NCBI GenBank assembly: GCA_903844665.1
Contig: CAIMUS010000057.1
Location: 1-39,031 of the forward strand
Reading direction: 5' to 3'
DNA length: 39,031 bases
Origin: an uncultured Pseudomonadota bacterium
GTDB lineage: Bacteria; Pseudomonadota; Gammaproteobacteria; Competibacterales; Competibacteraceae
Each line of letters begins with the position of its first letter. Position 1 is the first letter of the stretch. Made by a program: the position numbers and the translations under genes. The notes beneath the pieces are model-generated. The model had not been told where the DNA came from and made no database searches. It saw nothing but the letters and a program-made list of their open reading frames with translations. Positions 15,348 through 33,348 of this stretch are shown here, piece after piece.

Positions 15348-17254
15348 GTCAAGTCGTGATCCTGGCAGGTGGTAAAGGGACGCGGTTGCGTGAGCGTCTC
15401 GGCAATCTTCCCAAGCCTCTCGTTGACATCTGCGGCATGCCGCTGCTCGAGCGCCAGATTCTGCTGGCAAAGCACTACGGTTACACCGACGTGCTAATCC
15501 TGGTGAATTACGCAGCCAATTACATCATGGATTTCTGTGCTTCAAAAAATAATTGGGGCTTGATCCTCAGTTGTATCGACGAGGGCGAACCGCGCGGCAC
15601 GGCTGGAGCGTTACTGTCGGCTTACGATTATCTTGCCGACGAATTTCTGGTAATGTATGGCGATACAATGCTGGATGTAAACTTGCAACGCTTGCACGAT
15701 TTCCACCGCTCCTATCCGGAAGCGGCAGCAACTGTGTTTCTACATCCCAATGACCATCCGTACGATTCGGATCTGGTGGATATCGACGAGGATAACCGCA
15801 TCACTGCCTTCTATCCCTATCCCCATGATCAATCAAGTTGTTATCCCAATCTGGTCAATGCGGCACTTTATTGCATACGAAAAGCGACATTGGAAGCGTT
15901 TCGGTATAGAAATGGCCTGCTCGATTTTGGCAAACACCTCTTCCCCGAAATGTTGGCAAAAGGCTATTTATTATTCGGCTACAACAGCCCAGAATATATC
16001 AAGGATTGCGGCACACCCGCACGACTCGACAAAGTCTGCGCCGATTTTATTTCAGGAAAAATCACCCGCGCCAACCTGGATCACCCCCAGCAAGCCATTT
16101 TTCTGGATCGCGACGGCACCATCAACCGTGAAGTGAACTACTTAATACATCATAATCAATTTGAGTTGCTTGAGGGAACAGAGCAGGCTATCAAACGGCT
16201 GAATGCTTCGGAATATCGCACAGTGGTTATCACAAACCAACCTGTGCTGGCACGCGGGGAATGCAATGTAGACGATCTAAAGTTGATCCATAACAAGATG
16301 GAAACTCTGCTCGGTGCACAAGGGGCGTTCATCGATCGCATTTACTACTGCCCTCATCATCCGCATAAGGGTTATGCTGGTGAGATTCCGGAATTGAAGA
16401 TTGACTGTGATTGTCGTAAGCCTAGACCTGGCATGATCGAACGGGCTGTGGCCGATCTCAACATTGCGCTTGATCAGTCGTGGCTGATAGGCGATACTAC
16501 GGTGGATCTGGCAACCGCTAGAGCGGCGGGGATCAGATCTATCCTGGTCGAGACCGGCTATGCCGGACTCGATTACCGCATCATGGTGACTCCTGATTTC
16601 GTGGCGCCCAATTTGCTGGCAGCGGTGGAGTTTATTCTGGACGGCTATCCGCGCCTCATGAAACTGTGCGGACCGCTCGCCGTGCCTATCGTCGCCGGGA
16701 CATTCGTCTTGGTCGGGGGGCTATCCCGCAGCGGCAAGAGTTCATTCGCAGGCGGGCTCAGGGCAGCCCTGCAAGCGCGTGGGCTTGACGCGGTAGTGCT
16801 CTCTCTCGACCGTTGGCTTAAGAATGCGCCGGAGCGTACGGAAGGGGTATTCGGAAGATACGACCTCGCCGCCGTAAAGAGCTTGATCGGCCAACTCGTA
16901 GGCCGGCAGGCGCCGCTGGAACTCAGTCTGCCTGTCTACCACAAGTTGGAACTCCGGCGTATCGAAGGAGCGGAGCGTGTCGAGATAACCCCTTCCACCG
17001 TGGTAATCTTCGAGGGAACGGTGGCGCTCGCCCTTACCGAAAAGCTGCCTGCGGGCACCCACACGTTCTACGTAGAAATGGACGAGAATGAGCGCAAACG
17101 ACGGGTCATACACGAATACCTGTTGCGGGGAAAATCGAGGAAGGAGGCGGAAGCGATCTACCTGTCACGCCAGCAGGATGAAGTACCCGTAGTGGCTGCC
17201 AGCGCCATTATTGCCAGGCAGAGGATAACCCTACCACTCCCACCTATCAATTAA
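15344..17254 (+). CDS. hddC: Three-domain enzyme: heptose-1-P nucleotidyltransferase (HddC-like) + HAD phosphatase (GmhB-like) + P-loop kinase
   Basis: A 636-residue protein started at ATG 15344, overlapping the epimerase stop. Domain 1 (about 1-240) is a sugar nucleotidyltransferase: VVILAGGKGTRLRERLG, LPKPLVDICG, MYGDTMLDVN and YIKDCGTPARLDKV, as in HddC. Domain 2 (about 250-425) is a GmhB-type HAD phosphatase: FLDRDGTINRE (nucleophile Asp255, Asp257), VVITNQPVLARGE, a zinc-loop-like CPHHPHKG...CDCRKPRPGM, and WLIGDTTVDLATARAAG. Domain 3 (about 452-636) is a uridine-kinase-like P-loop domain with Walker A GGLSRSGKSS, LSLDRWLK and VVIFEGTVAL. With GmhA (32782) and HddA (31782) the first two domains complete the GDP-D-glycero-alpha-D-manno-heptose pathway. 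The role of the third domain is unknown, because HddA already supplies the sugar kinase. Confidence 0.85.
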   Translation: MSQVVILAGGKGTRLRERLGNLPKPLVDICGMPLLERQILLAKHYGYTDVLILVNYAANYIMDFCASKNNWGLILSCIDEGEPRGTAGALLSAYDYLADEFLVMYGDTMLDVNLQRLHDFHRSYPEAAATVFLHPNDHPYDSDLVDIDEDNRITAFYPYPHDQSSCYPNLVNAALYCIRKATLEAFRYRNGLLDFGKHLFPEMLAKGYLLFGYNSPEYIKDCGTPARLDKVCADFISGKITRANLDHPQQAIFLDRDGTINREVNYLIHHNQFELLEGTEQAIKRLNASEYRTVVITNQPVLARGECNVDDLKLIHNKMETLLGAQGAFIDRIYYCPHHPHKGYAGEIPELKIDCDCRKPRPGMIERAVADLNIALDQSWLIGDTTVDLATARAAGIRSILVETGYAGLDYRIMVTPDFVAPNLLAAVEFILDGYPRLMKLCGPLAVPIVAGTFVLVGGLSRSGKSSFAGGLRAALQARGLDAVVLSLDRWLKNAPERTEGVFGRYDLAAVKSLIGQLVGRQAPLELSLPVYHKLELRRIEGAERVEITPSTVVIFEGTVALALTEKLPAGTHTFYVEMDENERKRRVIHEYLLRGKSRKEAEAIYLSRQQDEVPVVAASAIIARQRITLPLPPIN

Positions 17255-17270: not shown

Positions 17271-18104
17271 ATGCTCCTACCCCTGCCCATTGTCGAGCGC
17301 TGCATGATGCAATCTAATAGCTATGGCCAGTTATGCATTAATGACCTGAAATCCTCTTTCGCAGGATGGCGGGTCTGGTACACGCTCGCTGTAAACGATG
17401 TGAAGCGTCGCTATCGACGATCCCGTCTAGGCCAATTCTGGCTGACACTCAGCATGGCGTTGACCATCGGCGGCTTGGGTTTGGTATATTCGGTGCTTTT
17501 CAAGATGAATGTTGCGGAGTATCTGCCCTATATCTCGGTGACATTTGTCTTCTGGGCGATCATTTCCAGCGGGATCATCGAGTCCTGCTCGGCATTTATC
17601 GAGAGCGAAGGTTTAATTCTTCACACTACGATTCCGCGCGCAACGCCTGTACTCCGGGTACAACTGCGATTATGGCTGATCGCACTGCATAATTTCGCGA
17701 TCATTCCGGTCGTGTTTCTGGTTTTTCAGTTTCCGGTGAATTGGAATCTGCTGTGGCTGATTCCTGGATTGGCTCTAGTCGCTGCAAACATCTTATGGAT
17801 CGGCTATTTTTTAGCGATCGTGTCCGCCAGGTTCAGAGATGTCCCCCAAATTGTTGCGAGCATAATGCAAATTGCTTTCTTTATTACACCCATAATGTTC
17901 AGACCGACCCAGCTCGGACATAATGGTTTAGTCCTGATGCTCAACCCGTTCGCCTATTTGCTGGAGATTGTGCGCGATCCGCTGTTAGGCACTACTCCAA
18001 ATGCCCTGGCCTTCGTCGTGTGTGCGATCATGGCCGTAGTTGGATGTCTTCTGATTCTGCCATTTGCGGGGCGTTATGCGCCGCGGGTCGTATATTGGTT
18101 GTAA
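17271..18104 (+). CDS. wzm: ABC-2 type polysaccharide exporter permease
   Basis: A 277-residue integral membrane protein with six helices and the short amphipathic N-terminal segment of Wzm proteins. Landmarks are WYTLAVNDVKRRYRRSRLGQ, which is the conserved cytoplasmic entry motif, FWLTLSMALTIGGLGLVY as helix 1, VSARFRDVPQIVASIMQIAF, FITPIMF and LNPFAYLLEIVRDPLLG. Together with Wzt it moves undecaprenyl-diphosphate-linked glycan across the cytoplasmic membrane. The first ATG (17271) is used here; ATG 17304 or 17307 would also suit, since the first twelve residues are not conserved. It follows the three-domain heptose enzyme by 16 bases and precedes wzt by seven. Confidence 0.9.
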   Translation: MLLPLPIVERCMMQSNSYGQLCINDLKSSFAGWRVWYTLAVNDVKRRYRRSRLGQFWLTLSMALTIGGLGLVYSVLFKMNVAEYLPYISVTFVFWAIISSGIIESCSAFIESEGLILHTTIPRATPVLRVQLRLWLIALHNFAIIPVVFLVFQFPVNWNLLWLIPGLALVAANILWIGYFLAIVSARFRDVPQIVASIMQIAFFITPIMFRPTQLGHNGLVLMLNPFAYLLEIVRDPLLGTTPNALAFVVCAIMAVVGCLLILPFAGRYAPRVVYWL

Positions 18105-18111
18105 CAACAAG

Positions 18112-18915
18112 ATGAACCTTCTGAACGTTGCCTTTACTAAGCCAACCATGTCGGACTCTCTTCCTTATATTCACCTTGACAATATCTCAGTCATACTTCC
18201 GATCTACAACGCGCGAGGGCGTGCGCTCAAGGCGGAGTTATTGTGGCGAACAGTCGGAGGCAATCTGGATAGCTCCACAGATCCCCATATTGTTATCGTC
18301 CGTGCTTTGGATGGAATCACGATTAATCTTGAACACGGCGACCGGATGGCCTTGATCGGTCGAAATGGCTCTGGAAAAACCACGCTGTTGCGCGTTTTCG
18401 CCGGAATTTATCCGCCCACCGGAGGCGCCATTTCGATCCATGGAAGGGTATCGGCATTGACGGACATGTCCATGGGCATGGATATGGAAGCCACCGGTTA
18501 TGAGAACATCTTTCTTCGCGGTGTGGTTATGGGCCTAAGCGCAGCACAGGCGGAATCGCTGATCCCCGATATCGAGCAGTTCACCGAGTTGGGTGAATAT
18601 CTGTGCCTTCCCGTACGGACCTATTCTACCGGCATGATGCTGCGGTTGGCCTTCGCCATCAGTACCGCCGTTCAACCGGAGATTCTGTTGCTGGATGAGA
18701 TGGTGGGCGCTGGAGATTCCGCCTTCGTTGCGAAGGCTAGAGACCGCATTGAAGGTCTGATTCACAAATCAAGCATTATGGTGCTTGCTTCTCATGCCGA
18801 CCAGTTAGTCACTCGATTGTGTACGCGCGCCATTTGGATGGATAGCGGTCGGGTACGTGCATTCGGCCCTGTGGAACAGGTCCTGGCGGATTACCACACT
18901 GAAGTTGGCTCTTGA
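18112..18915 (+). CDS. wzt: ABC exporter ATPase without a carbohydrate-binding domain
   Basis: A 267-residue nucleotide-binding subunit. Walker A is GRNGSGKTT (residues 83-91), the signature is YSTGMMLRLAF (171-181, in place of LSGGQ), Walker B is ILLLDEMVGAGD (191-202) and the switch His is in LASHADQL. The start at ATG 18112 follows the Wzm stop by seven bases; ATG 18148 is an alternative. The protein ends soon after the ATPase fold, so it lacks the C-terminal carbohydrate-binding module that Wzt has in capped O-antigen systems such as E. coli O9a. It is thus closer to KpsT or to Wzt of Klebsiella O1/O2-type systems. This is notable because capping-type methyltransferases are encoded downstream. 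Confidence 0.9.
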   Translation: MNLLNVAFTKPTMSDSLPYIHLDNISVILPIYNARGRALKAELLWRTVGGNLDSSTDPHIVIVRALDGITINLEHGDRMALIGRNGSGKTTLLRVFAGIYPPTGGAISIHGRVSALTDMSMGMDMEATGYENIFLRGVVMGLSAAQAESLIPDIEQFTELGEYLCLPVRTYSTGMMLRLAFAISTAVQPEILLLDEMVGAGDSAFVAKARDRIEGLIHKSSIMVLASHADQLVTRLCTRAIWMDSGRVRAFGPVEQVLADYHTEVGS

Positions 18916-19016
18916 TTGGCTTGCAGAGAATGGAATAGACATTATTGGGAATATGAGGTATCCTGACCAAAATGGACACGCCTGATTGGTTAAACTGACC
19001 CAATGAGGAGGTATGA

Positions 19017-19328
19017 ATGGAACGAAAACAAGACTACACGCCCGAATTCCGGGCCGAGGCTGTGAAGGTGGTACTGGCCGCCAGGGCTGTCTCTGGCCGA
19101 GGCGGCGAAGCGGCTGTCGGTGCCAAAGGGGACGTTGGCGAACTGGGTGGCCAGCGCCAAGGCATCAACGAGACCGGCTGCACCCGGAGCGCGCACGGTG
19201 GCAAGTTGGAGGAGGCTAAGCTGAAGCAATTGCGTAAGAATTTGGCCGAGGCCATCCTTGAGCGTGACATCTTAAAAACAGCGATGGCGCACTTTGCAAG
19301 GGAATCGCTGCAAGGTACGCGTTCATGA
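19017..19328 (+). pseudogene. IS3-family OrfA with two compensating frameshifts
   Basis: The start MERKQDYTPEFRAEAVKVVL is a typical IS3 OrfA (helix-turn-helix) opening, with a strong ribosome site (gaggaggt). The frame then goes out of register at about 19085. The correct sequence (LSLAEAAKRLSVPKGTLANW, then VASAKASTRPAAPGARTV) is in the +1 frame up to about 19205, after which the original frame resumes with LEEAKLKQLRKNLAEAILER and DILKTAMAHFARE. The open frame looks intact, but its recognition helix region is scrambled. The left end of the element may be near 18962 (ctgaccaaaatggacac). Confidence 0.8.
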
Positions 19329-19351
19329 AAGCGTGACGATTCGATTTTCCG

Positions 19352-19510
19352 GTGGAGGTTATGGTGCGTGTTCTCGATGTCTGCCGCAGTGGTTTCTATG
19401 CCTGGCTGGAGCGGCCGCCGTCGCCGCACGCCTTGGAAAATGAGCGGCTGAAAGTTGCCATTCTCGCGGCCCATGTGAAAATCCGGGAGACCTATAGCGC
19501 GAAGCGAACG
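19352..19510 (+). pseudogene. IS3-family OrfB, N-terminal fragment
   Basis: The frame gives MVRVLDVCRSGFYAWLERPP, then SPHALENERLKVAILAAHVK and IRETYSAKR. This is the N-terminal HTH-21-type segment of an IS3 OrfB transposase. Homology ends at about 19507; the DDE integrase core is missing. From about 19550 the DNA instead resembles the end of the glycosyltransferase genes found at 22-26 kb. The element was therefore truncated on its right side by a deletion or recombination. Confidence 0.75.
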
Positions 19511-19551
19511 GCGATGCAACCGGGTACTGACGCTCGAGCACGGAGCACTTG

Positions 19552-19667
19552 TCAAGGACGAGTTCTTGTTGCCTCATGACCAGAGTGCTAGCATGAAGCT
19601 TCCACACAAGTACGAGATGGATGTCTCCGCCATCCTAAATCTGCAACGTAAGGGGATCTTTGATTGA
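19552..19667 (+). pseudogene. Ghost of a GT2-GT4 glycosyltransferase gene junction
   Basis: The DNA gacgagttcttgttgcctca (19551 on) matches the end of the gene at 21948-24143 (gatgaagtcttgctgtctca). A few bases later ATG 19593 opens MKLPHKYEMDVSAILNLQR, clearly homologous to the starts MKRPGTYEFDVSVVLNLHR and MRRPDKYEFDVSVILNLHR of the two intact copies. The frame stops after 24 codons (TGA 19665-19667). So the last codons of one copy and the first codons of the next survive here. This indicates that the tandem array once extended further upstream. Confidence 0.75.
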
Positions 19668-21849: not shown

Positions 21850-21945
21850 TACTATTTCCTGGAAGCGATACGCGCACCCGTGCTGGGGAAGGAGGTGAGG
21901 AGTCACATCGACGAGGTTTTACTGTTTCATAACAAAGGTGCTTGA
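21850..21945 (+). pseudogene. C-terminal tail of a lost GT2-GT4 copy
   Basis: The frame ending at TGA 21943-21945 reads FLEAIRAPVLGKEVRSHIDE, then VLLFHNKGA. This is nearly the same as the end of the intact gene at 21948-24143 (KAIRAPLLGKEVGSHIDE, VLLSHDKGV). The junction to the next ATG (ttgagtATG) has the same two-base spacing as between the two intact genes (taagtATG). The rest of the copy is missing upstream. This is the trace of a further repeat unit of the tandem array that was deleted. Confidence 0.8.
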
Positions 21946-21947
21946 GT

Positions 21948-24143
21948 ATGAAGCGTCCAGGCACGTATGAGTTCGACGTCTCCGTCGTTCTAAATCTGCA
22001 CCGGGAGGCAGTCTACGTCGTCCGCACTCTCCGCTCCCTCAGCGAGGCGGCGAGCTATGCGTCGAATTGTGGGCTCCATGTAGAACTGGTGATCGTCTTC
22101 GACCGGTCGGACGACGCAACCCGTGCCGTAACTGAGTCGGCGGACAAGTTTGGTTTTGAGCGGGTGACTTCCATCGAGGTTGATCACGGATCTCTTGGCC
22201 TGTCCAGGAATTCTGGGATTGCTGTGGCGAGCGGGGAGTATTTATGGTTAGCCGATGCCGACGACCTGGTGTCGTTCAACTGCATAGAGCGCATGCATTT
22301 GGTTGCGCAGACCGAGGAGAAAACGGTGGTTATCCCGGAGTATTTGTTGGCGTTCGGGGTTGATTATTTTGTCCTCCGTTATTTCGATGATGCGGTGGTA
22401 GAGAGCGCTGACTTCGTATACGGGCACCCATATACTCTCCGCTTCATCCGCAGGAATGCCTTCGAGAATCTTCAATTTTTGGATCTTCGGCTCTCCAAGG
22501 GCTTTGCTTACGAAGACTGGCACCTGAATTGCGAGCTACGCGCTCGTGGCTATCGCTTCCGGATCGCGCCAAAGACCCTGTTTTTCTACCGGCAAAGAGA
22601 AGGAAGCCTGCTGAGACAGGCTAATGCGATGTCGGTTCGGCAGATTCCCCATTCCACGCTATTTGATCCCAACCACTTCGTCCGCATCGTGGAGGCGGAA
22701 AGACTGGCGCGTAACGAAGTTGACTTCCTGCGTCGGCGGGCCGAAGCGCGAATCTGCGTGCCTCGCGATGAACTGTTGGGAGACGCAACGTCCATGGAAC
22801 TCGTGACGGCTGCGGTGCAGATCGACCCGGGCATCAACCTGTACATGATCGAGCGGGGAAGCAATTGGACCAACGTCTTCCCGGATCAGCACTGGGGCCA
22901 CAGCTTTTTCGATGTATGCAGGCTCGTCAGATCCGAGAAGTTCACGGATGTGTTCCTACTCCCCTGGCTAATTGCTGGAGGGGCTGACCGCTTCATCCTC
23001 GACGTAATGACCTCTCTTCAGGAGTTGGAAGCTTCGGCGAACTTTCTTGTGATCTCGGGCGAGTCCATCGCCAAGTATGCCAAGCATACCTGGTTGCACA
23101 AACTCCCGAAGCAGTCAGTCTTCCTGGATATATACAACTTCTTTCCCTCGCTCTCGGAAGATGAGCGCGACCTGCTCGCCCTGCGTACGATCCTTGCGTG
23201 CGGCGATGGGGTGCGGCTGCATCTGAAACAAAGTGGCTTCGTGAATCGCATAATCAATAAGTTTTCTCATTGCCTGGGCGCGTTCAAAGCGATATTTTAT
23301 CGCTTCTCCGATCAACGCTACGTCCGTGGTGGCGAAGTTTTTGAACTCGGCTGGGGTTTCGACTTCATTTCTAATCACCTACCGCAACTTGGGCTGCTCG
23401 TCACGGATCACGAGCGAATCGCGAACAGTGATCGGCTGAGATTTGGAGTGGAACAGCAGAAGTGGCAATGTCTCTATGCAAAGTTCCTTTCCAAGCCCCC
23501 ACGTGGGGATGTCAAACCTTCAATGCGCCTGCTTTGGGTATCCCGGGTTTGCGCTGAGAAACGTCCGAAGCTCCTGGCGGGCATCGCGTCCGTTGCCTCG
23601 CGTTTGCTGCCGGGCATCTCGATTGATGCTTATGGAGCCCCTGAAAGCGGCGTGGATCTCAGCACAACCTTTGGTGGCGCCGAGGCATTGCGCTACAGGG
23701 GCAAGTTCCATGACTTCGACGAATTGAAACCCGAGGCGTACGACGCATTGATTTACACCACTCGCTTCGACGGGCTTCCGATTGTGGTCCTCGAGGCTAT
23801 GAGTTGGGGGCTACCCGTCATCGCGCCGGACGTGGGGGGGCTGGCTGAGACCGTGATGGACGGAAAGACGGGCTACCTCTTACCTGACCTCCAAGATGAC
23901 GACGCCCTGTGCGCTGCTTACGCGCAGGCGATTCAGAGGCTTTATGAGGACTGGAGCGCGACAATGGCCATGGGGCAAGCCGCGCAGGAACTTATTCGTC
24001 AACGACATAGCCCTGGCGCCTACAAACGCCGGGTAGCCGAGATATTTCTAGAGGAGCAGAAAGCGATACGTGCACCCTTGCTTGGTAAGGAGGTAGGGAG
24101 CCACATCGATGAAGTCTTGCTGTCTCATGACAAGGGTGTTTAA
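21948..24143 (+). CDS. GT2-GT4 bifunctional glycosyltransferase, tandem copy 1
   Basis: A 731-residue protein. The start ATG 21948 is chosen by alignment with copy 2; a TTG at 21942 would add two residues. The N-terminal part (about 1-260) is a GT2-like GT-A domain: DVSVVLNLHREAVYVVRTL, VELVIVFDRSDDATRAV and GEYLWLADADDLVS with the metal-binding DADD. The C-terminal part (about 520-700) is a GT4 domain: MRLLWVSRVCAEKRPKLL, ALIYTTRFDGLPIVVLEAMS with the E-x7-E region, and GLPVIAPDVGGLAETV. The middle segment (about 300-500) is similar in both copies and has no family I can name. It probably adds two sugars to a growing chain. Expressed in the same direction as copy 2, two bases away. GC-rich compared with 19-21 kb. 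Confidence 0.85.
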   Translation: MKRPGTYEFDVSVVLNLHREAVYVVRTLRSLSEAASYASNCGLHVELVIVFDRSDDATRAVTESADKFGFERVTSIEVDHGSLGLSRNSGIAVASGEYLWLADADDLVSFNCIERMHLVAQTEEKTVVIPEYLLAFGVDYFVLRYFDDAVVESADFVYGHPYTLRFIRRNAFENLQFLDLRLSKGFAYEDWHLNCELRARGYRFRIAPKTLFFYRQREGSLLRQANAMSVRQIPHSTLFDPNHFVRIVEAERLARNEVDFLRRRAEARICVPRDELLGDATSMELVTAAVQIDPGINLYMIERGSNWTNVFPDQHWGHSFFDVCRLVRSEKFTDVFLLPWLIAGGADRFILDVMTSLQELEASANFLVISGESIAKYAKHTWLHKLPKQSVFLDIYNFFPSLSEDERDLLALRTILACGDGVRLHLKQSGFVNRIINKFSHCLGAFKAIFYRFSDQRYVRGGEVFELGWGFDFISNHLPQLGLLVTDHERIANSDRLRFGVEQQKWQCLYAKFLSKPPRGDVKPSMRLLWVSRVCAEKRPKLLAGIASVASRLLPGISIDAYGAPESGVDLSTTFGGAEALRYRGKFHDFDELKPEAYDALIYTTRFDGLPIVVLEAMSWGLPVIAPDVGGLAETVMDGKTGYLLPDLQDDDALCAAYAQAIQRLYEDWSATMAMGQAAQELIRQRHSPGAYKRRVAEIFLEEQKAIRAPLLGKEVGSHIDEVLLSHDKGV

Positions 24144-24145
24144 GT

Positions 24146-26266
24146 ATGAGGCGTCCAGACAAGTATGAGTTCGACGTCTCCGTCATTCTAAATCTTCACC
24201 GTGAGGCGATCTACGTCGTCCGCACTCTCCGCTCCCTCAGCGAGGCGGCGAGCTATGCGTCGCAGTGTGGATTCCGAGTAGAACTGGTGATCGTCTTCGA
24301 CCAGTCGGACGACGCAACCCGGTCTGCAGCCGAGGCGGCAGAAAAGTTTGGTTTTGATCGGGTGACTTCCATTGAGGTTGAACACGGATCTCTCGGCCTG
24401 TCTCGAAACTCCGGGATCGCCGTGGCGAGTGGCGAGTATGTGTGGCTGGTCGATGCCGACGACTTGGTGTCATCCAACTGCATAGAGCGTATGCATTTGG
24501 TCGCGCAGACCGAAGAGAGGGTGACCGTTTTCCCGGAGTATTTGTTGGCGTTCGGAGTTGCTTACTTTGTCACCCGGCATTTCGATGATTCGGTGGTCGA
24601 GACCGCGGACTTCGTTTATGGGCACCCATACATCTCCCATCTCTTCATCCGCAAGGACGCTTTCGAGAACCTGCAATTTTCGGATCTGCGACTTTCCAAG
24701 GGCTTTGCCTACGAAGACTGGCACCTGAATTGCGAGCTACGCGCTCGCGGCTATCGCTTCCGGATCGCGCCAAAGACCGTGTTCTTCTATCGCCAAAGAG
24801 AGGGAAGTTTGCTGAAACAGGCCAATGCGATTTCGGTTCGACAGATTCCCCACTCCACGCTATTTGAGCCCAACCACTTTGTGCGCACCGTGGAGGTGGA
24901 AAGACTGGCGCGTAATGAAGTTGACTTCCTGCGCCGACGGGCAGATGCGCGAGCTAGCCTTCCTCGCGATGAATTGTTGGGAGATGCAACATGCATGAAA
25001 CTTGTGGCGGCCGCGGTGCAGATCGACCCGGGCATTAACCTAAACATGATCGAGCGGGGAGGCAACTGGATCAACGTCTTCCCGGATCAACACTGGGGTC
25101 ACAGCTTTTTCGATGTCTGCAGGCTTGTGGGGACCGAGAAGTTCACTGATATAGTCCTGCTCCCCGGGCTATCCGAGGGAGGGGGCGAGCGCTTCATCCT
25201 CGATGTGATGACCTCTCTCCACGAGTTGGAAGCTTCCGTGAACTTTCTTGTGATCTCGGGCGAGTCCCACGCCAAGCATACTTGGCTACATAAGCTCCCA
25301 AATCAGGCAGTTTTCCTAGACCTGTACAACTCATTTCCAAGGCTCACGGAAGATGAACGAGACCAGATCACCCTGCGCACGATCCTTTCTTGCGCTTGCG
25401 GTGATGGTACGCGCCTCCATTTGAAACCAAGTTGGTTCGCGCATCGTCTATTCAACAAGTTTTCTCATTGCCTGGGCGCGCTTAAAACCATATATTATCG
25501 CTTCTGCGATTGGCGCTACGTCCTTGGTGGCGAAATTTTCGAAGTTGGATCGGGCTTCGACATCATTTCTACTCAGCTCCCGCAGTTTTGGCTGCTCGTC
25601 ACGGATCACGAGCGGATCGCGATCACTGATCGGCGACGCTTTGGGCTTGAACAGCGGAAGTGGCAGTGCCTCTATGCAAAGTTCCTTTCCAAGCCGCCCC
25701 ATGGGGATGTTCAATCCACAATGCGCCTGTTGTGGGCGTCTCGGGTATGCGCTCAGAAACGTCCGGAAATCGTGATCGGCATTGCGTCCGCTGCCTCGCG
25801 TTTGCTGCCAGGCATCTCGATTGATGCTTATGGAGCACCTGAAAACGACGTGGATATCAGCGCGACCTTTGGCGGCGCCGAGGCATTACACTACAAGGGC
25901 GCGTATCTCGACTTCGATGACTTGAAACCCGAGGCGTACGACGCCTTTATTTACACCACCCGCTTCGATGGGCTTCCGAATGTGGTCCTCGAGGCCATGA
26001 GTTGGGGGCTACCCGTCATCGCGCCGGACGTGGGCGGGCTGGCTGAGGCCGTGATGGACGGAAAGACCGGCTACCTCTTACCCGACCTCCAAGATGACGA
26101 CGCCATGTGCGCCGCTTACGCACAGGCGATTCAGAAGCTGTATCAGGACTGGAGCGCGACATTGGCCATGGGGCAAGCCGCGCAGGAACTTGTGCGTCAG
26201 CGCCATAGCCCGGACGCCTACAGACGCCGGGTCGCCGCGATATTTCTAGAGGAGCAGACGGTATGA
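24146..26266 (+). CDS. GT2-GT4 bifunctional glycosyltransferase, tandem copy 2
   Basis: A 706-residue paralogue of the preceding gene, alike over the whole length at the DNA and protein level (for example YEFDVSVILNLHREAIYVV, then GFAYEDWHLNCELRARGYRF in both). The GT2 DADD (WLVDADDLVSSN) and the GT4 block (YTTRFDGLPNVVLEAMSWGL, PVIAPDVGGLAEAV) are intact. Differences cluster in the middle segment (GLSEGGGERFILDVM against IAGGADRFILDVM, and the loss of a few residues near SHAKHTW). It ends at IFLEEQTV and lacks the 26-residue tail of copy 1. The stop overlaps the next methyltransferase gene by ATGA, so translation is coupled. The two copies may differ in donor or linkage. Confidence 0.85.
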   Translation: MRRPDKYEFDVSVILNLHREAIYVVRTLRSLSEAASYASQCGFRVELVIVFDQSDDATRSAAEAAEKFGFDRVTSIEVEHGSLGLSRNSGIAVASGEYVWLVDADDLVSSNCIERMHLVAQTEERVTVFPEYLLAFGVAYFVTRHFDDSVVETADFVYGHPYISHLFIRKDAFENLQFSDLRLSKGFAYEDWHLNCELRARGYRFRIAPKTVFFYRQREGSLLKQANAISVRQIPHSTLFEPNHFVRTVEVERLARNEVDFLRRRADARASLPRDELLGDATCMKLVAAAVQIDPGINLNMIERGGNWINVFPDQHWGHSFFDVCRLVGTEKFTDIVLLPGLSEGGGERFILDVMTSLHELEASVNFLVISGESHAKHTWLHKLPNQAVFLDLYNSFPRLTEDERDQITLRTILSCACGDGTRLHLKPSWFAHRLFNKFSHCLGALKTIYYRFCDWRYVLGGEIFEVGSGFDIISTQLPQFWLLVTDHERIAITDRRRFGLEQRKWQCLYAKFLSKPPHGDVQSTMRLLWASRVCAQKRPEIVIGIASAASRLLPGISIDAYGAPENDVDISATFGGAEALHYKGAYLDFDDLKPEAYDAFIYTTRFDGLPNVVLEAMSWGLPVIAPDVGGLAEAVMDGKTGYLLPDLQDDDAMCAAYAQAIQKLYQDWSATLAMGQAAQELVRQRHSPDAYRRRVAAIFLEEQTV

Positions 26267-27750
26267 CTGTGGAGCGTCTTCATTTCGGCCATGGGGCAGA
26301 ACCGCTTAACGCGATGGATGCAGCCGAACACTTTGTGAGATACGCCGCCGCGAAGGGGCTGGCGCCGGGAAGGCGCGTGCTGGACATCGCCTGCGGAGAA
26401 GGCTACGGATCCTGGCTCCTGAGAGAGTGGGGCGCCAGCGAGGTTGTCGGCGTCGATGTGTCCGATGAGGCGATTGCTGCCGCAAATACCCAATTCGCGC
26501 GGGAGGGAGTGCGCTTTCTCCTCAGCGATGCGAGCCGTGTCTGCGATCTGCTTGGCGAGGAACGCTTCGATCTCATCGTCTGTTTCGAAACCATCGAGCA
26601 CGTCCCAGACCCCGCCTCACTCTTACGAGCGATCAGGTTGCTCGCCTCGCCCGAAGCGATCATTCTGGTGAGCTGCCCAAACGATCATGTTGCGACAGAG
26701 CCGGGAGAGAGTAACCCGTTCCATCTGCGAAAATACACATTCGCGGAGTTCAAGTCCCTGGCCGAATCCTGCCTCGACCCGGCCCAGGCCTGGCTGTTGG
26801 GCGCCAATGCTCAAGGCTTTGCCCTTATTCAGGAAGGGTATGCTCTGGCCGAACAAATCTGGACCGACCCAGCGGCATTTCTCAAGTCTGAGATGCTGCA
26901 TGCCGCCTATGTTCTACCAAGCCAGGTCAACATCCGCCCTGCCATCGACACAGTGTTATTCTACATGGGCGTTTGGGGTACTACGGACATCGCTCCTTTG
27001 GCCGCAGTATCGATGCAGTCCTACGCCGCCTTCATCGAGTCTTGGCGTGCCATAGAATGGTTCAGGGCGCAGTTAGCCGAGGCGGACGTGCGCCTGGCCG
27101 ACACCAAGACCCAGCTTGATGGAGCGCTAGAGCAGCTCGCGGGAGTTAATGAAAGACTGGCTGAAAAAGAGGCACAACTTGCTAAGCTGCATACCGAGCA
27201 TGAGATCGCGTGCAGCAAGGCTGGAGATCTCCAGAGGGAGTTGGCCGAGGCGGACGTGCGCCTGGCCGACACCAAGACTCAGCTTGATGGAGCGCTAGCT
27301 CAGCTCGCGGGAGTTAATGAAAGACTGGCTGAAAAAGAGGCTCAACTCGCTAAGTTGAATACCGAACATGAGTTCGCGTGCAGCAAGGCTGGAGATCTCC
27401 AGAGGGAGGTTGATCGTCTGCGCCGCAGATTGTTTGCGCTCAACGACATCGTGGCCGCTCTTGGGACCGAGCAATCGCGTTGGCATGAGGCGCAAGCCCG
27501 AGCGGACGAGGCCATTCGATTACGGGACGAAAAGGAGGCTGAACTGCAACGCATGCAAGCCCGAGCGGACGAGGCCATTCGATTACGGGACGAAAAGGAG
27601 GCTGAACTGCAACGCATCTTAGCCTCTCGGGGACGCCGCCTTCTGGACGCGCTCTATTACCGTCTTTATCGAATCCCGTATCTGGGTGGTCTAATGAACT
27701 CGATTCGTCGTGTTGTAGGAAAGGGACTTAGATGGATTCGCGGTCGATGA
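26263..27750 (+). CDS. SAM methyltransferase with long C-terminal coiled coil (WbdD-like architecture)
   Basis: A 495-residue protein. Residues about 15-220 are a class I methyltransferase: RVLDIACGEGYGSWLL, VVGVDVSDEAIAAA, FDLIVCFETIEHVPDP and ESNPFHLRKYTFAEF. From about 265 to 440 the chain is a coiled coil built of a 56-residue unit repeated twice (27073-27240 and 27241-27408) and a 21-residue unit repeated twice (27493-27555 and 27556-27618); 56 and 21 are 8 and 3 heptads. The C-terminus is basic and amphipathic (ALYYRLYRIPYLGGLMNSIR) and may bind the membrane. In E. coli O9a, WbdD joins a capping methyltransferase to a coiled coil that measures chain length. This protein has no kinase domain. 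A role as cap and ruler is inference. It overlaps the genes on both sides or nearly so. Confidence 0.85.
   Translation: MTVERLHFGHGAEPLNAMDAAEHFVRYAAAKGLAPGRRVLDIACGEGYGSWLLREWGASEVVGVDVSDEAIAAANTQFAREGVRFLLSDASRVCDLLGEERFDLIVCFETIEHVPDPASLLRAIRLLASPEAIILVSCPNDHVATEPGESNPFHLRKYTFAEFKSLAESCLDPAQAWLLGANAQGFALIQEGYALAEQIWTDPAAFLKSEMLHAAYVLPSQVNIRPAIDTVLFYMGVWGTTDIAPLAAVSMQSYAAFIESWRAIEWFRAQLAEADVRLADTKTQLDGALEQLAGVNERLAEKEAQLAKLHTEHEIACSKAGDLQRELAEADVRLADTKTQLDGALAQLAGVNERLAEKEAQLAKLNTEHEFACSKAGDLQREVDRLRRRLFALNDIVAALGTEQSRWHEAQARADEAIRLRDEKEAELQRMQARADEAIRLRDEKEAELQRILASRGRRLLDALYYRLYRIPYLGGLMNSIRRVVGKGLRWIRGR
27073..27408 (+). repeat. 2 x 168-bp direct repeat encoding 8-heptad coiled-coil units
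   Basis: Units 27073-27240 and 27241-27408 differ at only a handful of bases. Each encodes 56 residues starting LAEADVRLADTKTQL and ending ACSKAGDLQRE. The length is a whole number of heptads and of codons, so gain or loss of a unit keeps both the reading frame and the coiled-coil register. Confidence 0.9.
27493..27618 (+). repeat. 2 x 63-bp direct repeat encoding 3-heptad coiled-coil units
   Basis: Units 27493-27555 and 27556-27618 are identical except for the last base. Each encodes QARADEAIRLRDEKEAELQR plus one residue (21 residues, three heptads). Near identity at the DNA level points to recent duplication. Confidence 0.9.
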
Positions 27751-27848
27751 GTGTTCGTATCTGGGAGGCTTTGTGCGTGGCCCAAAACGAAAATTGCGTC
27801 TTGATGGATATACTTGACATAGCTACGATTAACAGCAGGAAAACCTCC

Positions 27849-28676
27849 ATGAATCTCACCGAAAATCGTGTCTTTGCGGATTACTTCAACTTTCTCGTTT
27901 CCTCTGGAGGACAGCAACTTTCACGGGCGATCTCCCTCTGGCGCTCGGGTGTCGAGTCCGAAGGTGACTTCTGGTCGCGCTGGTTCGAAACCAAGGGACT
28001 CGAATGGCCGGAAGACTATGCCATCCGAATCAGACCTGCACCGCTCGCGCCTTGGCTCGCGGAACTGCTTCCCAAACAGCACGGATCTGAGGTGGCTAAG
28101 ATTCTCGACGTCGGTGCAGGTCCCATCACGAAGGCAGGAACATTTCTCCCGGATCGACCGATCGAGGTAGTGGCGTGTGATCCACTCGCTCGGGTCTACG
28201 ACAAGATCATCGAACGCTGTGGTGTAAAGGTACCTCTGAGAACCGTCTTCTCGTTCGCTGAGGATCTAAGCGCTCGGTTTGAAGAGTCATCGTTTGACCT
28301 CGTATGCTGCACGAATGCTCTGGATCACTCGATCGAACCCGCCTGGGGCATTCTGGAGATGCTGATCGTTGTCAAGAAGGGAGGATTCGTATTTTTAAGC
28401 CACCGCCGCAACGAGGCCGAGTTTGAAAACTATGCGGGCCTACATCAGTGGAACTTGGATGAGGCTGACGGCGACTTCATCGTCTGGACTAAGGAGCGGA
28501 CGATCAACATTTCGGAGCTCACGGGCGGGTTTGCGGATATTCAATGCAGCGTTTCCGGTGACGGGCTCACCACTCGGATCAGAAAGACCAATAATATACC
28601 AATCGATTCAAACAGTTACCACCGAAAGTTAAGGGCCGCACTCCTCAATGCCTTGATTGATGATAGCGGCAGGTGA
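27849..28676 (+). CDS. SAM-dependent methyltransferase
   Basis: A 275-residue protein from ATG 27849, chosen because aggaaa lies nine bases upstream and the conserved sequence begins here (NRVFADYFNFLVSSGGQQ). The open frame extends to ATG 27747, which would overlap the preceding stop (ATGA) and add 34 residues without similarity; the true start is uncertain. The N-terminal part has LSRAISLWRSGVESEGDFW and WFETKGLEWPEDY, then motif I AKILDVGAGPITKAGTFL, the acidic beta-2 end VVACDPLARVYD, FDLVCCTNALDHSIEP and VVKKGGFVFLSHRRNEAE. The substrate is unknown; glycan methylation is likely from context. It lies between the two coiled-coil methyltransferase genes and is followed by a MITE-like insertion. 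Confidence 0.8.
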   Translation: MNLTENRVFADYFNFLVSSGGQQLSRAISLWRSGVESEGDFWSRWFETKGLEWPEDYAIRIRPAPLAPWLAELLPKQHGSEVAKILDVGAGPITKAGTFLPDRPIEVVACDPLARVYDKIIERCGVKVPLRTVFSFAEDLSARFEESSFDLVCCTNALDHSIEPAWGILEMLIVVKKGGFVFLSHRRNEAEFENYAGLHQWNLDEADGDFIVWTKERTINISELTGGFADIQCSVSGDGLTTRIRKTNNIPIDSNSYHRKLRAALLNALIDDSGR

Positions 28677-28796
28677 AAGTGTACTAATTTTGTTGTTTGC
28701 AACTTCAAACAGAAATATCAAACTCACAACGATTCACAAACGATCCGATGACAATATCATGCATTCGTTCTAATTTTGAGAAACAGATGGTTTTAC

Positions 28797-28888
28797 GGTA
28801 GTGTTCCGAAAGTGTTGTTGATTGTATGAAGAAGAGGATTGATCCAAGCGCCTCCAGTCTGCCACAACAACACTTCTGGAACACTACC
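28797..28888. mobile_element. 92-bp MITE-like element with 24-bp terminal inverted repeats and 8-bp target duplication
   Basis: The ends are ggtagtgttccgaaagtgtt at 28797 and, as reverse complement of the right end, ggtagtgttccagaagtgtt; 23 of 24 positions pair (arms 28797-28820 and 28865-28888). The 8-base sequence ggttttac flanks both sides directly (28789-28796 and 28889-28896), as expected for a target site duplication. The interior of about 44 bases has no coding capacity. It must have been moved by a transposase encoded elsewhere. It fills the 295-base gap between two methyltransferase genes; the rest of the gap shows nothing. Confidence 0.85.
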
Positions 28889-28971
28889 GGTTTTACGAGC
28901 AATCCGATTAATTCGAGTGCGTAGGGTCGAGTGCTTACGCTCTATTTTTTGAGTATGTTGCTTGCCAATAA

Positions 28972-30279
28972 ATGATAATACATGAGCGTTTTACCCTGAG
29001 TGACATTGACTGGCCGGAATTCCTGTTTCACATGCAACGCTATGCGCTGGCCCAGCGCTTCGCTCGCGGATTACAGGTGCTTGATTGCGCTTGTGGTGAG
29101 GGATACGGCACAGCTTACATAGCACAGGAGGCGGTGCATGTCACGGGTCTGGACATATCCATAGAGGCCATCACGCAATGTCGGGAAACTTTCATCGGGG
29201 TCGATAACATCGATTTCCAGATTGCCGACATGGCGCACATTCCGTTCCCCGAAGCTTCGTTCGATCTGGTTGTTTGTTTCGAGGCAATCGAACACATCGA
29301 TGCCGACAAGCAGGACCGGGCTCTTGCCGAAATGCGGCGTGTGCTAAAGCCGGAAGGAATCCTGCTGATCTCGACCCCGGATCGACTGGTCGGTGAAAAG
29401 CGCGGATATGCCAATCCATTCCATGTCGCCGAGATGACGATCACCGAGTTCTCCGAAAAGCTCGGTCGACATTTCCCCCATGTCGCTCTGTATAGTCAGG
29501 AACTGAACATGGTATCGGCGATGTGGTCTCTCGATACGAACGGGCAATCCGAAGGTATAGGCGAATGGATCGACCAGACCATACTCGAAGCGGATCGCAG
29601 CTTGCGCCCGATGGCTGGTAACAATGCCTTCTACTATGTCTTTGCAATCTGCAGTTCGAACCCGATCACGTTGCCGCATGCACACTATTTCTCATCGTAT
29701 CGGCGTGAACCAGCCCAGCAACTGTGGAACCGCATCGATGCCGCCGAGCAAAGGCTCCAGCAAGAAGTGGTTGAGTTACAGCGGCAACTGGTGGCAGCGG
29801 ATGAGCGGGCAGCCAATGCGGATCAAACGGCTTCCCGCCTGCGTGAGCAGTTCCTGATCGCGGAAAAGAATAACACAATGCTCGCGCGCGAGATTGTTGC
29901 CCTTGAACGGAATCGCGCCGAACTCGGCGAGGTACGCCAACAGCTCGACGCCACCTGTGCTGAACTCGGCGAGGTACGCCAACAGCTCGACGCCACCTGT
30001 GCTGAACTCGGCGAGGTACGCCAACAGCTCGACGCCACCTGTGCCGAACTCGGCGAGGTACGCCAACAGTTCGACGCCACCTGTGCCGAACTCGGCGAGG
30101 TACGCCAACAGCTCGACGCGGCTCGTGATCGGCTGCAGGTGACCGAGGCATTTTACGGATCGCGAGTGGGGCGCCTGGCACGACGGTATTACGCCATTTA
30201 CGATACGCCCCTAATAGGAGCAGTGATGCGCGCGATGCGCGCGGTCGTTCGAACTCTGCGTCCTGGACACGCACGATGA
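28972..30279 (+). CDS. SAM methyltransferase with C-terminal coiled coil made of 14-residue repeats
   Basis: A 435-residue protein. The methyltransferase part (about 1-225) shows LQVLDCACGEGYGTAYIAQE, VTGLDISIEAITQCR, FDLVVCFEAIEHIDADKQDR, KPEGILLISTPDR and YANPFHVAEMTITEF, close in type to the protein at 26263. From about 250 a coiled coil follows; residues 316-385 consist of five units of AELGEVRQQLDATC (two heptads each). The C-terminus (YGSRVGRLARRYYAIYDTPL, then IGAVMRAMRAVVRTLR) matches the end of the 26263 protein in pattern (SRGRRLL..YY..Y..P..G..M...R.VV). The two proteins therefore share one design with different ruler segments. Its stop overlaps the next frame by ATGA. Confidence 0.85.
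   Translation: MIIHERFTLSDIDWPEFLFHMQRYALAQRFARGLQVLDCACGEGYGTAYIAQEAVHVTGLDISIEAITQCRETFIGVDNIDFQIADMAHIPFPEASFDLVVCFEAIEHIDADKQDRALAEMRRVLKPEGILLISTPDRLVGEKRGYANPFHVAEMTITEFSEKLGRHFPHVALYSQELNMVSAMWSLDTNGQSEGIGEWIDQTILEADRSLRPMAGNNAFYYVFAICSSNPITLPHAHYFSSYRREPAQQLWNRIDAAEQRLQQEVVELQRQLVAADERAANADQTASRLREQFLIAEKNNTMLAREIVALERNRAELGEVRQQLDATCAELGEVRQQLDATCAELGEVRQQLDATCAELGEVRQQFDATCAELGEVRQQLDAARDRLQVTEAFYGSRVGRLARRYYAIYDTPLIGAVMRAMRAVVRTLRPGHAR
29917..30126 (+). repeat. 5 x 42-bp direct repeat encoding 2-heptad coiled-coil units
   Basis: Five consecutive 42-base units (starts 29917, 29959, 30001, 30043, 30085), each opening gccgaactcggcgaggtacg or a one-base variant (gct for gcc). The first four encode AELGEVRQQLDATC (one has F for L); the last ends in DAAR. 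Differences between units are single bases, so the array is young and could change unit number readily. Confidence 0.95.
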
Positions 30280-30608
30280 TCCAAGTGTGGTTGTTGACCA
30301 CGGAATTCCCGCCTTACGTGGGCGGCGGCATTGGAACATACTGCTTCGAGCTATCGGCCTGTGCAGCGCCCGCCGGACATGGCTATGGCGCTGTTGCCCT
30401 GCCGCACTTTCTGTTCAATTACCGGGTGCGCGTGGACTCGATGATGCACCGGGTGAATCGGGAAAATGATATCTACAGCTACGAGTGTATTGCCCACAAT
30501 AACGCCGCGCTGTTCGCGAAATACGCGGTTGCGATCGTTGGTCTGTTGAACGCGAATGGGCCGGGTTACAAGCATGACAATCCGTTGGTTCAAGCCAACC
30601 TCAATTGA
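30276..30608 (+). pseudogene. Truncated GT4 glycosyltransferase, N-terminal stump
   Basis: A 110-residue frame that starts like a GT4 enzyme: VWLLTTEFPPYVGGGIGTYC, then a degenerate AGHGYGAVALP where AGHxVTV would be expected. The following residues (NNAALFAKYAVAIVGLLNAN) recall the helix before the first domain's end. The stop comes before any donor-binding domain; full-length relatives have about 350-400 residues. The start overlaps the stop of the coiled-coil methyltransferase gene by ATGA, so it is probably still translated. The next gene starts nine bases on. I read it as the leftover of a deleted glycosyltransferase; a functional short protein cannot be excluded. Confidence 0.65.
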
Positions 30609-31781: not shown

Positions 31782-32762
31782 ATGATTATTAGCCGAACCC
31801 CCTTGCGTATGAGTTTTGTTGGTGGCGGTAGTGATCTGCCCAGCTTCTACCAGAAACATGGTGGGGCGGTGATCAGCACCGCAATCAATAAATACGTTTA
31901 CGTAAATGTCAATAAAAAATTTGACAGTGGCATCCGTATCGCTTACTCTAAGACTGAGGAAGTCTCCAGTGTATCCCGGATAGAGCACAAGATTGTCCGT
32001 GCCACCATGGAATTCCTTGGCTTGCAAGGAGGGATTGAGATCACTACCATTGCCGATATTCCATCCAAGGGAACTGGTCTAGGGTCGTCCAGCACTTTTA
32101 CTGTGGGCTTACTGCATGCGCTCAATGCGTATAACGGTCAGTACGTCTCGAGCGAACAGCTTGGAGCCGATGCCAGCCATATTGAGATCGATGTGTGTGG
32201 TGAACCTATTGGCAAGCAAGATCAATATGCTGCAGCATTCGGGGGGTTCAACCTGATCGAATTTAATCCAGACGAATCGGTAGTCATAACCCCGATCATC
32301 TGTGCCAGGGAAACCTTGCAACAAATTGAGGAGAGCATACTCGTTTTCTATACTGGCATCACTCGTAGTGCCTCTGCGCTGCTCAAGCAACAATCAGAGG
32401 AAGTTATCAACAGTATAAGCAAACAACAGACACTGCGGAGTATGGTGGATCTTACCTATCAGCTATGGGCCGAGATCCAGAAAAACAATACCCTTGCCTT
32501 TGGTGAAATTCTGCATGAAAACTGGATGCTTAAAAAAGGAATCACTGCTGGAATCAGTACTAGTGACATCGATCAGTGGTATGAGCTTGCCAGAAAGACA
32601 GGCGCGATCGGAGGGAAGATTCTAGGTGCCGGAGCAGGAGGATTCCTAATGTTGTACGCGCCCCCCGATTCGCATCCAGCGATTAAGGCAGCACTCTCCA
32701 TGCTAAGACCTGTCGATATTGGTTTTGAGCGATTGGGTAGCCGTATTATTTTCTACCATTAA
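31782..32762 (+). CDS. hddA: D-glycero-alpha-D-manno-heptose 7-phosphate kinase
   Basis: A 326-residue GHMP-family kinase. It opens with IISRTPLRMSFVGGGSDLPS, the signature start of HddA-like sugar kinases. The ATP-binding motif 2 is PSKGTGLGSSSTFTVGLLHA (about residues 91-110) and motif 3 is GGKILGAGAGGFLML (about 282-296). GKQDQYAAAFGGFN is also typical. It phosphorylates D-glycero-D-manno-heptose 7-phosphate at C1 to give the 1,7-bisphosphate, the substrate of the GmhB-like HAD domain encoded at 15344. GmhA is encoded 19 bases downstream. The 105-base gap in front may hold the promoter of the hddA-gmhA pair, but no clear box is seen. Confidence 0.9.
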   Translation: MIISRTPLRMSFVGGGSDLPSFYQKHGGAVISTAINKYVYVNVNKKFDSGIRIAYSKTEEVSSVSRIEHKIVRATMEFLGLQGGIEITTIADIPSKGTGLGSSSTFTVGLLHALNAYNGQYVSSEQLGADASHIEIDVCGEPIGKQDQYAAAFGGFNLIEFNPDESVVITPIICARETLQQIEESILVFYTGITRSASALLKQQSEEVINSISKQQTLRSMVDLTYQLWAEIQKNNTLAFGEILHENWMLKKGITAGISTSDIDQWYELARKTGAIGGKILGAGAGGFLMLYAPPDSHPAIKAALSMLRPVDIGFERLGSRIIFYH

Positions 32763-32781
32763 ACTTCGGAGATTAATACCC

Positions 32782-33348
32782 ATGAATACCTACATAGGAT
32801 CAGCGGCAAACTACCTGGATAGACTCAGCAAAGTCTTGTCAGGGCTTGATCTGCAGCAAATTGACCAGGCAATTGCAATTATTGCTAATGCCTGGCAGAA
32901 CGAGCGGCAAATCATAACCCTAGGTAATGGTGGCAGCTCACTTACCGCCCTGCATTATATCAATGATTGGAATAAAAGTATCTATCTTGCTACCGGTAAA
33001 CCGTTCCGGGGGCGTAGTCTGATAGATAACATAGGCTTGATAATGGCTTATGCCAACGATGTTTCATTCCAAGATGTCTTTGTTGAGCAACTGAAAAATA
33101 TTCTACAGCCTCGGGATCTGGTTATTGCTATTTCTGGCAGTGGAAATTCTGAAAATGTAATTCGCGCCGTCAACTATGCGAATGAACAAGACGCAATCAC
33201 GCTAGGAATTTGCGGTTATAATGGAGGTAAGCTCAAACAAATTACACAGCACTACCTATGGGTGAATGTCAACGATATGCAGTTATCGGAAGATATTCAT
33301 TCCATTTTTGGTCATATTGTAATGCAAAAGCTGTGTGGATATTTTTGA
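32782..33348 (+). CDS. gmhA: Sedoheptulose 7-phosphate isomerase (SIS domain)
   Basis: A 188-residue protein from ATG 32782 (ggaga ribosome site); the longer frame from 32719 overlaps hddA and is discarded. It has the SIS-domain fold of GmhA: QIITLGNGGSSLTALHYIND (about residues 46-65), LIMAYANDVSFQDVFVEQL (about 90-108), VIAISGSGNSENVIRAVNYA (about 114-133), GGKLKQITQHYLWV and EDIHSIFGHIVMQKLC at the end, with the C-terminal His seen in GmhA. It turns sedoheptulose 7-phosphate into D-glycero-D-manno-heptose 7-phosphate, the first step of heptose activation. The usual GmhA A-D-S sequence after the GGS is changed to LTALH, as in some SIS paralogues, so assignment rests partly on the neighbouring hddA. 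Confidence 0.88.
   Translation: MNTYIGSAANYLDRLSKVLSGLDLQQIDQAIAIIANAWQNERQIITLGNGGSSLTALHYINDWNKSIYLATGKPFRGRSLIDNIGLIMAYANDVSFQDVFVEQLKNILQPRDLVIAISGSGNSENVIRAVNYANEQDAITLGICGYNGGKLKQITQHYLWVNVNDMQLSEDIHSIFGHIVMQKLCGYF

Follow-up and report, generated by a model that had tools for sequence, protein, structure and literature searches.

The window analyzed here is a stretch of 39,031 nucleotides and contains an ABC transporter-linked polysaccharide locus encoding two paralogous proteins, P0001 and P0002. Both consist of a methyltransferase domain, a coiled coil built in part of tandem repeats, and a common basic C-terminal tail, and the coils of their relatives in other genomes differ in length by heptad steps. 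We propose, at slightly better than even probability, that P0001 is a membrane-associated, chain-terminating sugar methyltransferase, the coil of which serves as a spacer that sets the minimum chain length and evolves by duplication and loss of units. The S-adenosylmethionine (SAM)-dependent head would methylate the growing glycan at its nonreducing end, the coil would oligomerize and keep the head away from the membrane, and the basic helical tail would dock on the membrane or on the polymerase. Chains that reach the head would be capped and shorter ones would not, so that coil length would set the minimum chain length. A 14-residue, two-heptad cassette makes up part of the coil; each copy would lengthen it by ~2.1 nm, and whole units that keep the register would be duplicated or lost.

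Domain layout and 42-bp array of P0001

P0001 (435 amino acids [aa]; positions 28972 to 30279, plus strand, as are its parts and, below, P0002, the coil-less methyltransferase, the ABC transporter genes, and the GT2-GT4 and GT2 glycosyltransferases) was delimited by its open reading frame (ORF), a Methyltransf_11 match, and AlphaFold2 modeling, and it comprises three parts. (i) The class I SAM-dependent methyltransferase domain covers about residues 1 to 240 (28972 to 29690) and is supported by Pfam (E value of 8e-26, residues 37 to 133), invariant residues, and a structure match. It keeps H20, R23, Y24, D38, G42, G44, G46, E104, E107, H108, S134, P136, H151, and E154, which are invariant across 64 relatives, and bears the signature of these relatives (HxxRY, VLDxACGEGYG, FETIEH, SxP, and NPFHVxEL). 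The best structure match is CgnL (7pd7; VIA-align Z of 20.6), which ties with other methyltransferases. In the AlphaFold2 model, residues 20 to 190 have pLDDT values of mostly 81 to 98; this model was based on a 64-row alignment and replaced a single-sequence model in which the methyltransferase came out unmodeled. (ii) The coiled coil, assigned from the AlphaFold2 models and the heptad register, covers residues 246 to 395 (29707 to 30156), that is, ~150 residues or ~22 nm if continuous. The C-terminal half was modeled as helices 246 to 296 and 302 to 395, a short helix at 399 to 407, and a tail helix, and the break near residues 297 to 301 matches a shift in the heptad register just ahead of the repeats. 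(iii) The basic tail (30163 to 30276), recognized by AlphaFold2, composition, and tail alignment, has 9 K/R versus 2 D/E residues and a predicted helix at 413 to 428. The Pfam scan found no kinase family in P0001, and the model leaves no room for one, since the methyltransferase runs straight into the coil.

Five in-frame 42-bp units of the AELGEVRQQLDATC type, two heptads each, were identified at 29917 to 30126 by Tandem Repeats Finder (TRF) and by reading in register; they lie in the frame of the 435-aa protein, and the coordinates proposed by a previous sequence-only reading proved exact to the base. The TRF match (29917 to 30119) has a period of 42, 4.8 copies, 97% matches, and a score of 385. 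Units 1 to 4 differ from each other by 0 to 2 bases and unit 5 by 4 to 5 bases, and the translation within the ORF at 28972 to 30279 reads AELGEVRQQLDATC three times, then AELGEVRQQFDATC, and then AELGEVRQQLDAAR. At 0.1485 nm per residue, a 14-residue unit corresponds to ~2.1 nm and all five units to ~10.4 nm. Chance origin of the array was ruled out, because the best TRF score in 500 codon-shuffled versions of the P0001 coil was 65, compared to the 385 observed.

The window makes up a complete contig in a draft assembly of 348 contigs for a 4.88-Mb genome, and the units of an array of ~200 bp can hence be counted only as reliably as they were assembled. The unit number, or even the whole array, might be misassembled: the genome is fragmented, the array (~203 bp) is at least as long as common short reads, and the contig of one relative (L087) ends within a 42-bp array of four units. 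We nevertheless consider such an artifact highly improbable, as the units bear their own differences (GCC/GCT, L/F, and the divergent unit 5), the reading frame is intact on either side of the array, and similar arrays recur across many independent genomes. The P0001 unit sequence was absent from the 38 other Competibacteraceae genomes searched, and no close relatives with the P0001 coil were found in its own genus (one genome) or family; searches for viral relatives and for relatives on plasmid DNA likewise returned none. Just 5' of P0001, at 28796 to 28889, lies a 94-bp hairpin-forming element with 25-nucleotide arms that are 92% complementary. The element is MITE-like, and related copies lie at four more sites of the genome (94% on C85).

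A second coil methyltransferase in the same locus

P0002 (495 aa; 26263 to 27750), identified by Pfam, BLASTP, and tail alignment, has its parts in the same order as P0001 but a longer coil (~205 versus ~150 residues). The sequence-only reading had placed the two genes 1.2 kb apart and ascribed to their products a shared design of methyltransferase, coil, and similar basic tail. The distance measured from the P0002 end (27750) is 1,221 bp, and the design was confirmed. The two tails align locally over the pattern YYxxYxxPxxGxxMxxxRxVV, an alignment equaled by 2 of 5,000 shuffles, and a search with the P0001 tail across the 4.88-Mb genome returned the P0001 and P0002 sites and no third one. The same reading had called the two coil units unrelated. 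This holds for the units, which measure 14 residues in P0001 and 56 and 21 residues in P0002, and it does not hold for the proteins, which are paralogues with methyltransferases of 40% identity (BLASTP E value of 1e-32). TRF detected in the P0002 coil two copies of a 168-bp unit (56 aa, eight heptads) with 10 differences (27071 to 27408) and two identical copies of a 63-bp unit (21 aa, three heptads; 27492 to 27617), so that all three units of both coils are multiples of seven residues.

In a 78-row methyltransferase tree, the two proteins are not sisters: P0002 falls, on a long branch, among other sequences (95/77), and P0001 belongs to a separate, weakly resolved group. Local gene duplication as the source of the pair was therefore not favored. 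Judging from these sequence comparisons, P0002 is a deep, old paralogue of P0001; the tree position implies that the protein duplication would be old, or that the two genes arrived separately, and that the coil repeats would have arisen later and separately. The differing units and the tree thus bear out the view that heptad-multiple repeats expanded independently in the two coils. The expectation that two such proteins in one locus would be unusual was borne out as well, as none of 80 related loci has two: one P0001-like methyltransferase was found per locus in 80/80 loci, many of which are cut by contig ends.

Coil repeats and coil lengths in relatives

The 80 named loci, from many phyla, were obtained in a contig scan of genomes, and further relatives came from genome searches. 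Their proteins show three layouts, namely, methyltransferase-short coil, methyltransferase-long coil-tail, and methyltransferase-coil-glycosyltransferase. A Wzt-type ATPase, as in ABC transporters of the O-antigen type, is encoded within 5 kb upstream on the same strand in 44 of the 67 loci with at least 5 kb of upstream sequence, and 43 of 48 Wzt proteins near relatives are long enough for a C-terminal domain. An end-of-coil motif, SWRLT, was dropped as proof, since it is clear in just part of the family (a strict pattern matches 16/80, two of these at wrong places) and is degenerate in P0001 and P0002.

Arrays are present in the coils of many relatives. They include units of 63 bp (seven copies; L065), 117 bp (four copies; L019), 33 bp (5.6 copies; L083), 243 bp (L069), 159 bp (L093), 105 bp (L070), 84 bp (L038 and L100), 54 bp (L111), 42 bp (L087, L050, and L030/L046), and 21 bp (L101 and others). 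In a list compiled by hand of 21 arrays from 20 proteins with units of at least 7 aa, the unit measures 7n residues in 16 arrays and 7n+4 residues in 5, with no other value. These are steps that coiled coils accept, and coil packing is thus kept; a few weak coil arrays with units of 4 to 6 residues break this rule. Among coils of at least 60 residues, arrays were found in 10/37 family members versus 3/69 of the remaining coil ORFs in these loci (Fisher P value of 0.001, with L101 reassigned), an enrichment to be taken as indicative because the control set includes spurious ORFs. Since repeat-built coils are common in the family, two expansions in one locus tell less about selection there than the sequence-only reading took them to do. 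In L087, from a Nitrosopumilus metagenome-assembled genome, the coil methyltransferase gene leaves the contig inside its array, the four units of which are 100% identical; the assembly is broken at the repeat, and misbinning is possible. Heptad-repeat coils also occur in other enzymes of glycan loci, namely, in an FkbM-like methyltransferase of Planktothrix (L039, 6543 to 7958; LEQSQTE) and in a glycosyltransferase-coil-glycosyltransferase protein (L082, 5458 to 9885; LNQQHEN), and the pattern therefore reaches beyond the P0001 family.

The sequence-only reading had named a lack of unit-number variation in all relatives as part of what would refute it, and variation among relatives was found. 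In four close pairs, with methyltransferases 80 to 91% identical, the coils differ by a single internal gap between conserved flanks: (i) 7 residues in Gallionella (L030/L046), inside a repeated LRTGQME unit; (ii) 7 residues in Mucilaginibacter (L073/L081); (iii) 21 residues in Stenotrophomonas L121/L122, inside LEQSQAQ repeats; and (iv) 7 residues in Stenotrophomonas L125/L127. In pairs (ii) and (iv) the extra heptad is no visible repeat copy. L125/L126 shows several coil gaps with a sum of 105, and the exceptions to multiples of seven are L120/L123 (5+10) and L032/L047 (3). The chance of obtaining multiples of seven is ~0.001 for 5/7 pairs and ~0.005 for 4/6 pairs, without the multigap pair. 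For one family of Lysobacterales, matches came from 59 genomes, and the members read have a coil of ~25 residues, which is uninformative on heptad-step indels. The sequence data suggest that coil length evolves mostly by whole, packing-keeping units, via tandem duplication.

An alternative explanation is a coil that is tolerated and nearly neutral. It might simply oligomerize or tether the methyltransferase, register-keeping duplications by slippage or unequal recombination would be harmless, and length would not be under selection. Consistent with this, repeat units are private to the relatives that carry them, coils differ greatly in length and sequence next to conserved flanking domains, the longer units all keep coil packing, as structure alone demands, orthologues of the Lysobacterales family retain just the ~25-residue coil, and repeats also occur in the coils of the FkbM-type and glycosyltransferase-coil-glycosyltransferase enzymes. 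We regard this explanation as somewhat unlikely, because coil length matters in the best-studied analogue, WbdD, in which coil insertions or truncations shift the modal chain length (PMC5082667). Furthermore, the E. coli O9-group WbdD gene measures 2,127 bp in 48/48 full-length strains among the matches listed, down to 90% DNA identity, and a length fixed despite 10% divergence resembles constraint rather than drift. At the other extreme, the 42-bp array might act as a contingency ruler that changes by slippage in in-frame steps of ~2 nm, with P0001 and P0002 setting two length classes per locus. We give this idea little credence; if true, the chain length of the glycan would vary heritably within a population.

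Coiled-coil terminators as a kind are already known. In the literature searched (open-licence texts), we found no description of (i) a coil of near-identical two-heptad units, (ii) two coil terminator-like proteins of unequal length in one locus, or (iii) family-wide coil growth by packing-keeping units. The known coiled-coil rulers of polysaccharide chain length belong to a handful of enterobacterial enzymes, and the evolution of ruler length is undescribed in the literature searched. On the sequence evidence, spacer change in whole coil turns suggests a route by which bacteria could reset the chain length of their surface sugars. The arrays and the differences of +7, +7, +7, and +21 residues provide a natural length series in matched proteins, with which the link between coil and chain length becomes testable outside E. 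coli.

Polysaccharide locus and known chain terminators

Upstream of the two coil methyltransferases, the window encodes a Wzm-type ABC transporter permease (17271 to 18104; ABC2_membrane, and the galactan Wzm model NF050109 with an E value of 2e-65, under the cut-off of the model) and a Wzt-type ATPase (18064 to 18915; 283 aa) that consists of the nucleotide-binding domain (NBD) only, with ABC_tran at residues 82 to 213 alone. Pfam identified two GT2-GT4 fusion glycosyltransferases, A (21942 to 24143), a candidate polymerase, and its near-duplicate B (24146 to 26266), with a putative role, directly 5' of P0002, as well as a GT2 glycosyltransferase 3' of P0001 (30618 to 31676). A third, coil-less methyltransferase (27732 to 28676; Methyltransf_11, E value of 1.1e-6) lies between P0002 and P0001. 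P0001 is ~10 kb from wzt and does not adjoin it. No C-terminal carbohydrate-binding (cap-reading) domain was detected in the Wzt protein or in the other window proteins scanned; for comparison, the Wzt gene of E. coli HS measures 1,296 bp (about 431 aa). Export control can therefore not exactly follow the E. coli O9 scheme. The Wzt proteins of L028 and L088 are likewise NBD only, and the Wzm/Wzt proteins of these loci are the most similar to those of the window. Directly 3' of wzt, at 18915 to 19600, we observed stop-broken remnants resembling an IS3-type transposase, and Wzt may possibly have lost a C-terminal domain.

Several features link P0001 to known chain terminators, for which a long coil is described as a marker and methyltransferase-coil-tail or -glycosyltransferase layouts are reported in PMC11231755. 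(i) WbdD of E. coli O9/O9a (K. pneumoniae O3) has, like P0001, an N-terminal class I methyltransferase, a long C-terminal coil, and a basic C-terminal region, and it is encoded in an ABC transporter-dependent polysaccharide locus with glycosyltransferases. Its coil separates the capping domains from the polymerase (PMC5082667 and PMC11231755). WbdD-type proteins are characterized at the C terminus by an amphipathic helix that associates with the membrane and by a site that recruits the polymerase; at this end, P0001 has its basic tail with the helix predicted at 413 to 428. However, WbdD of O9a/O3 has a kinase domain and P0001 does not; the likeness of P0001-type methyltransferases to WbdD covers 82 columns (hhalign, probability of 94%) of the generic SAM-binding Rossmann part only; and the alignment of the tails is not significant, with 543 of 5,000 shuffles as good. 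WbdD did not appear among the PDB sequence matches listed or among the structure matches listed, which excludes nothing. (ii) According to excerpts of PMC3482155 and PMC11231755, the WbdD homologues of E. coli O8 and K. pneumoniae O5 are kinase-less like P0001, the O8 protein being a methyltransferase alone (PMC3482155), they have a coil and a membrane-linked C terminus, and the cap there is a methyl group. These excerpts describe neither a repeat-built coil nor a second copy in the locus, and the likeness is one of descriptions, not of sequence. (iii) ORF6 of K. pneumoniae O7 and its orthologues share the modular layout, with a methyltransferase, an extra domain, a coil, and in some cases C-terminal glycosyltransferases. 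CgnL (7pd7) is the best structure match of both methyltransferases, tied in the case of P0001 (PMC11231755). Unlike in ORF6, no additional domain, kinase-like or CBM, separates the methyltransferase of P0001 from its coil. (iv) In WbbB of K. pneumoniae O12, a coiled-coil ruler parts the terminator from the polymerase (PMC11231755), as in the model for P0001; unlike in P0001, the terminator is a Kdo transferase and all modules are in one chain. The best reading of these comparisons is that P0001 would work like WbdD without being classed as a WbdD.

Several points count against the capping model: the Wzt protein has no cap-reading domain, so that licensing of export by the cap, as in the WbdD model, has no visible counterpart in the locus; wzt is ~10 kb away; the similarity to WbdD is generic; the tail does not align significantly with that of WbdD; and the length of E. 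coli O9-group WbdD is invariant among the matches listed. As an alternative, P0001 could be a decorating methyltransferase that modifies sugars within the repeat units or on side branches, its coil being a glycosyltransferase scaffold and not a ruler. The missing domain of Wzt would fit this function, two coil methyltransferases per locus exceed the need of one chain end, and the locus encodes further methyltransferases of other types (at 9289, 19697, 20844, and 27732), which makes nonterminal methylation plausible. We nonetheless judge decoration unlikely, since relatives lie next to wzt and, in many cases, show the terminator pattern of fusion to glycosyltransferases, and since PMC11231755 treats the long coil as a terminator marker.

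Two minor observations concern the remaining genes. A 110-aa ORF at 30276 to 30608, across the P0001 stop codon, resembles a GT4 N terminus (TTEFPPYVGGGIGTY) without a Pfam match and is probably a truncated remnant of a GT4 glycosyltransferase. At 15269 to 17254 and 31782 to 33348, there are genes like those of the GDP-D-glycero-D-manno-heptose pathway (nucleotidyltransferase-HAD fusion, GHMP kinase, and SIS isomerase), and, judging from these similarities, the glycan of the locus may contain manno-heptose.
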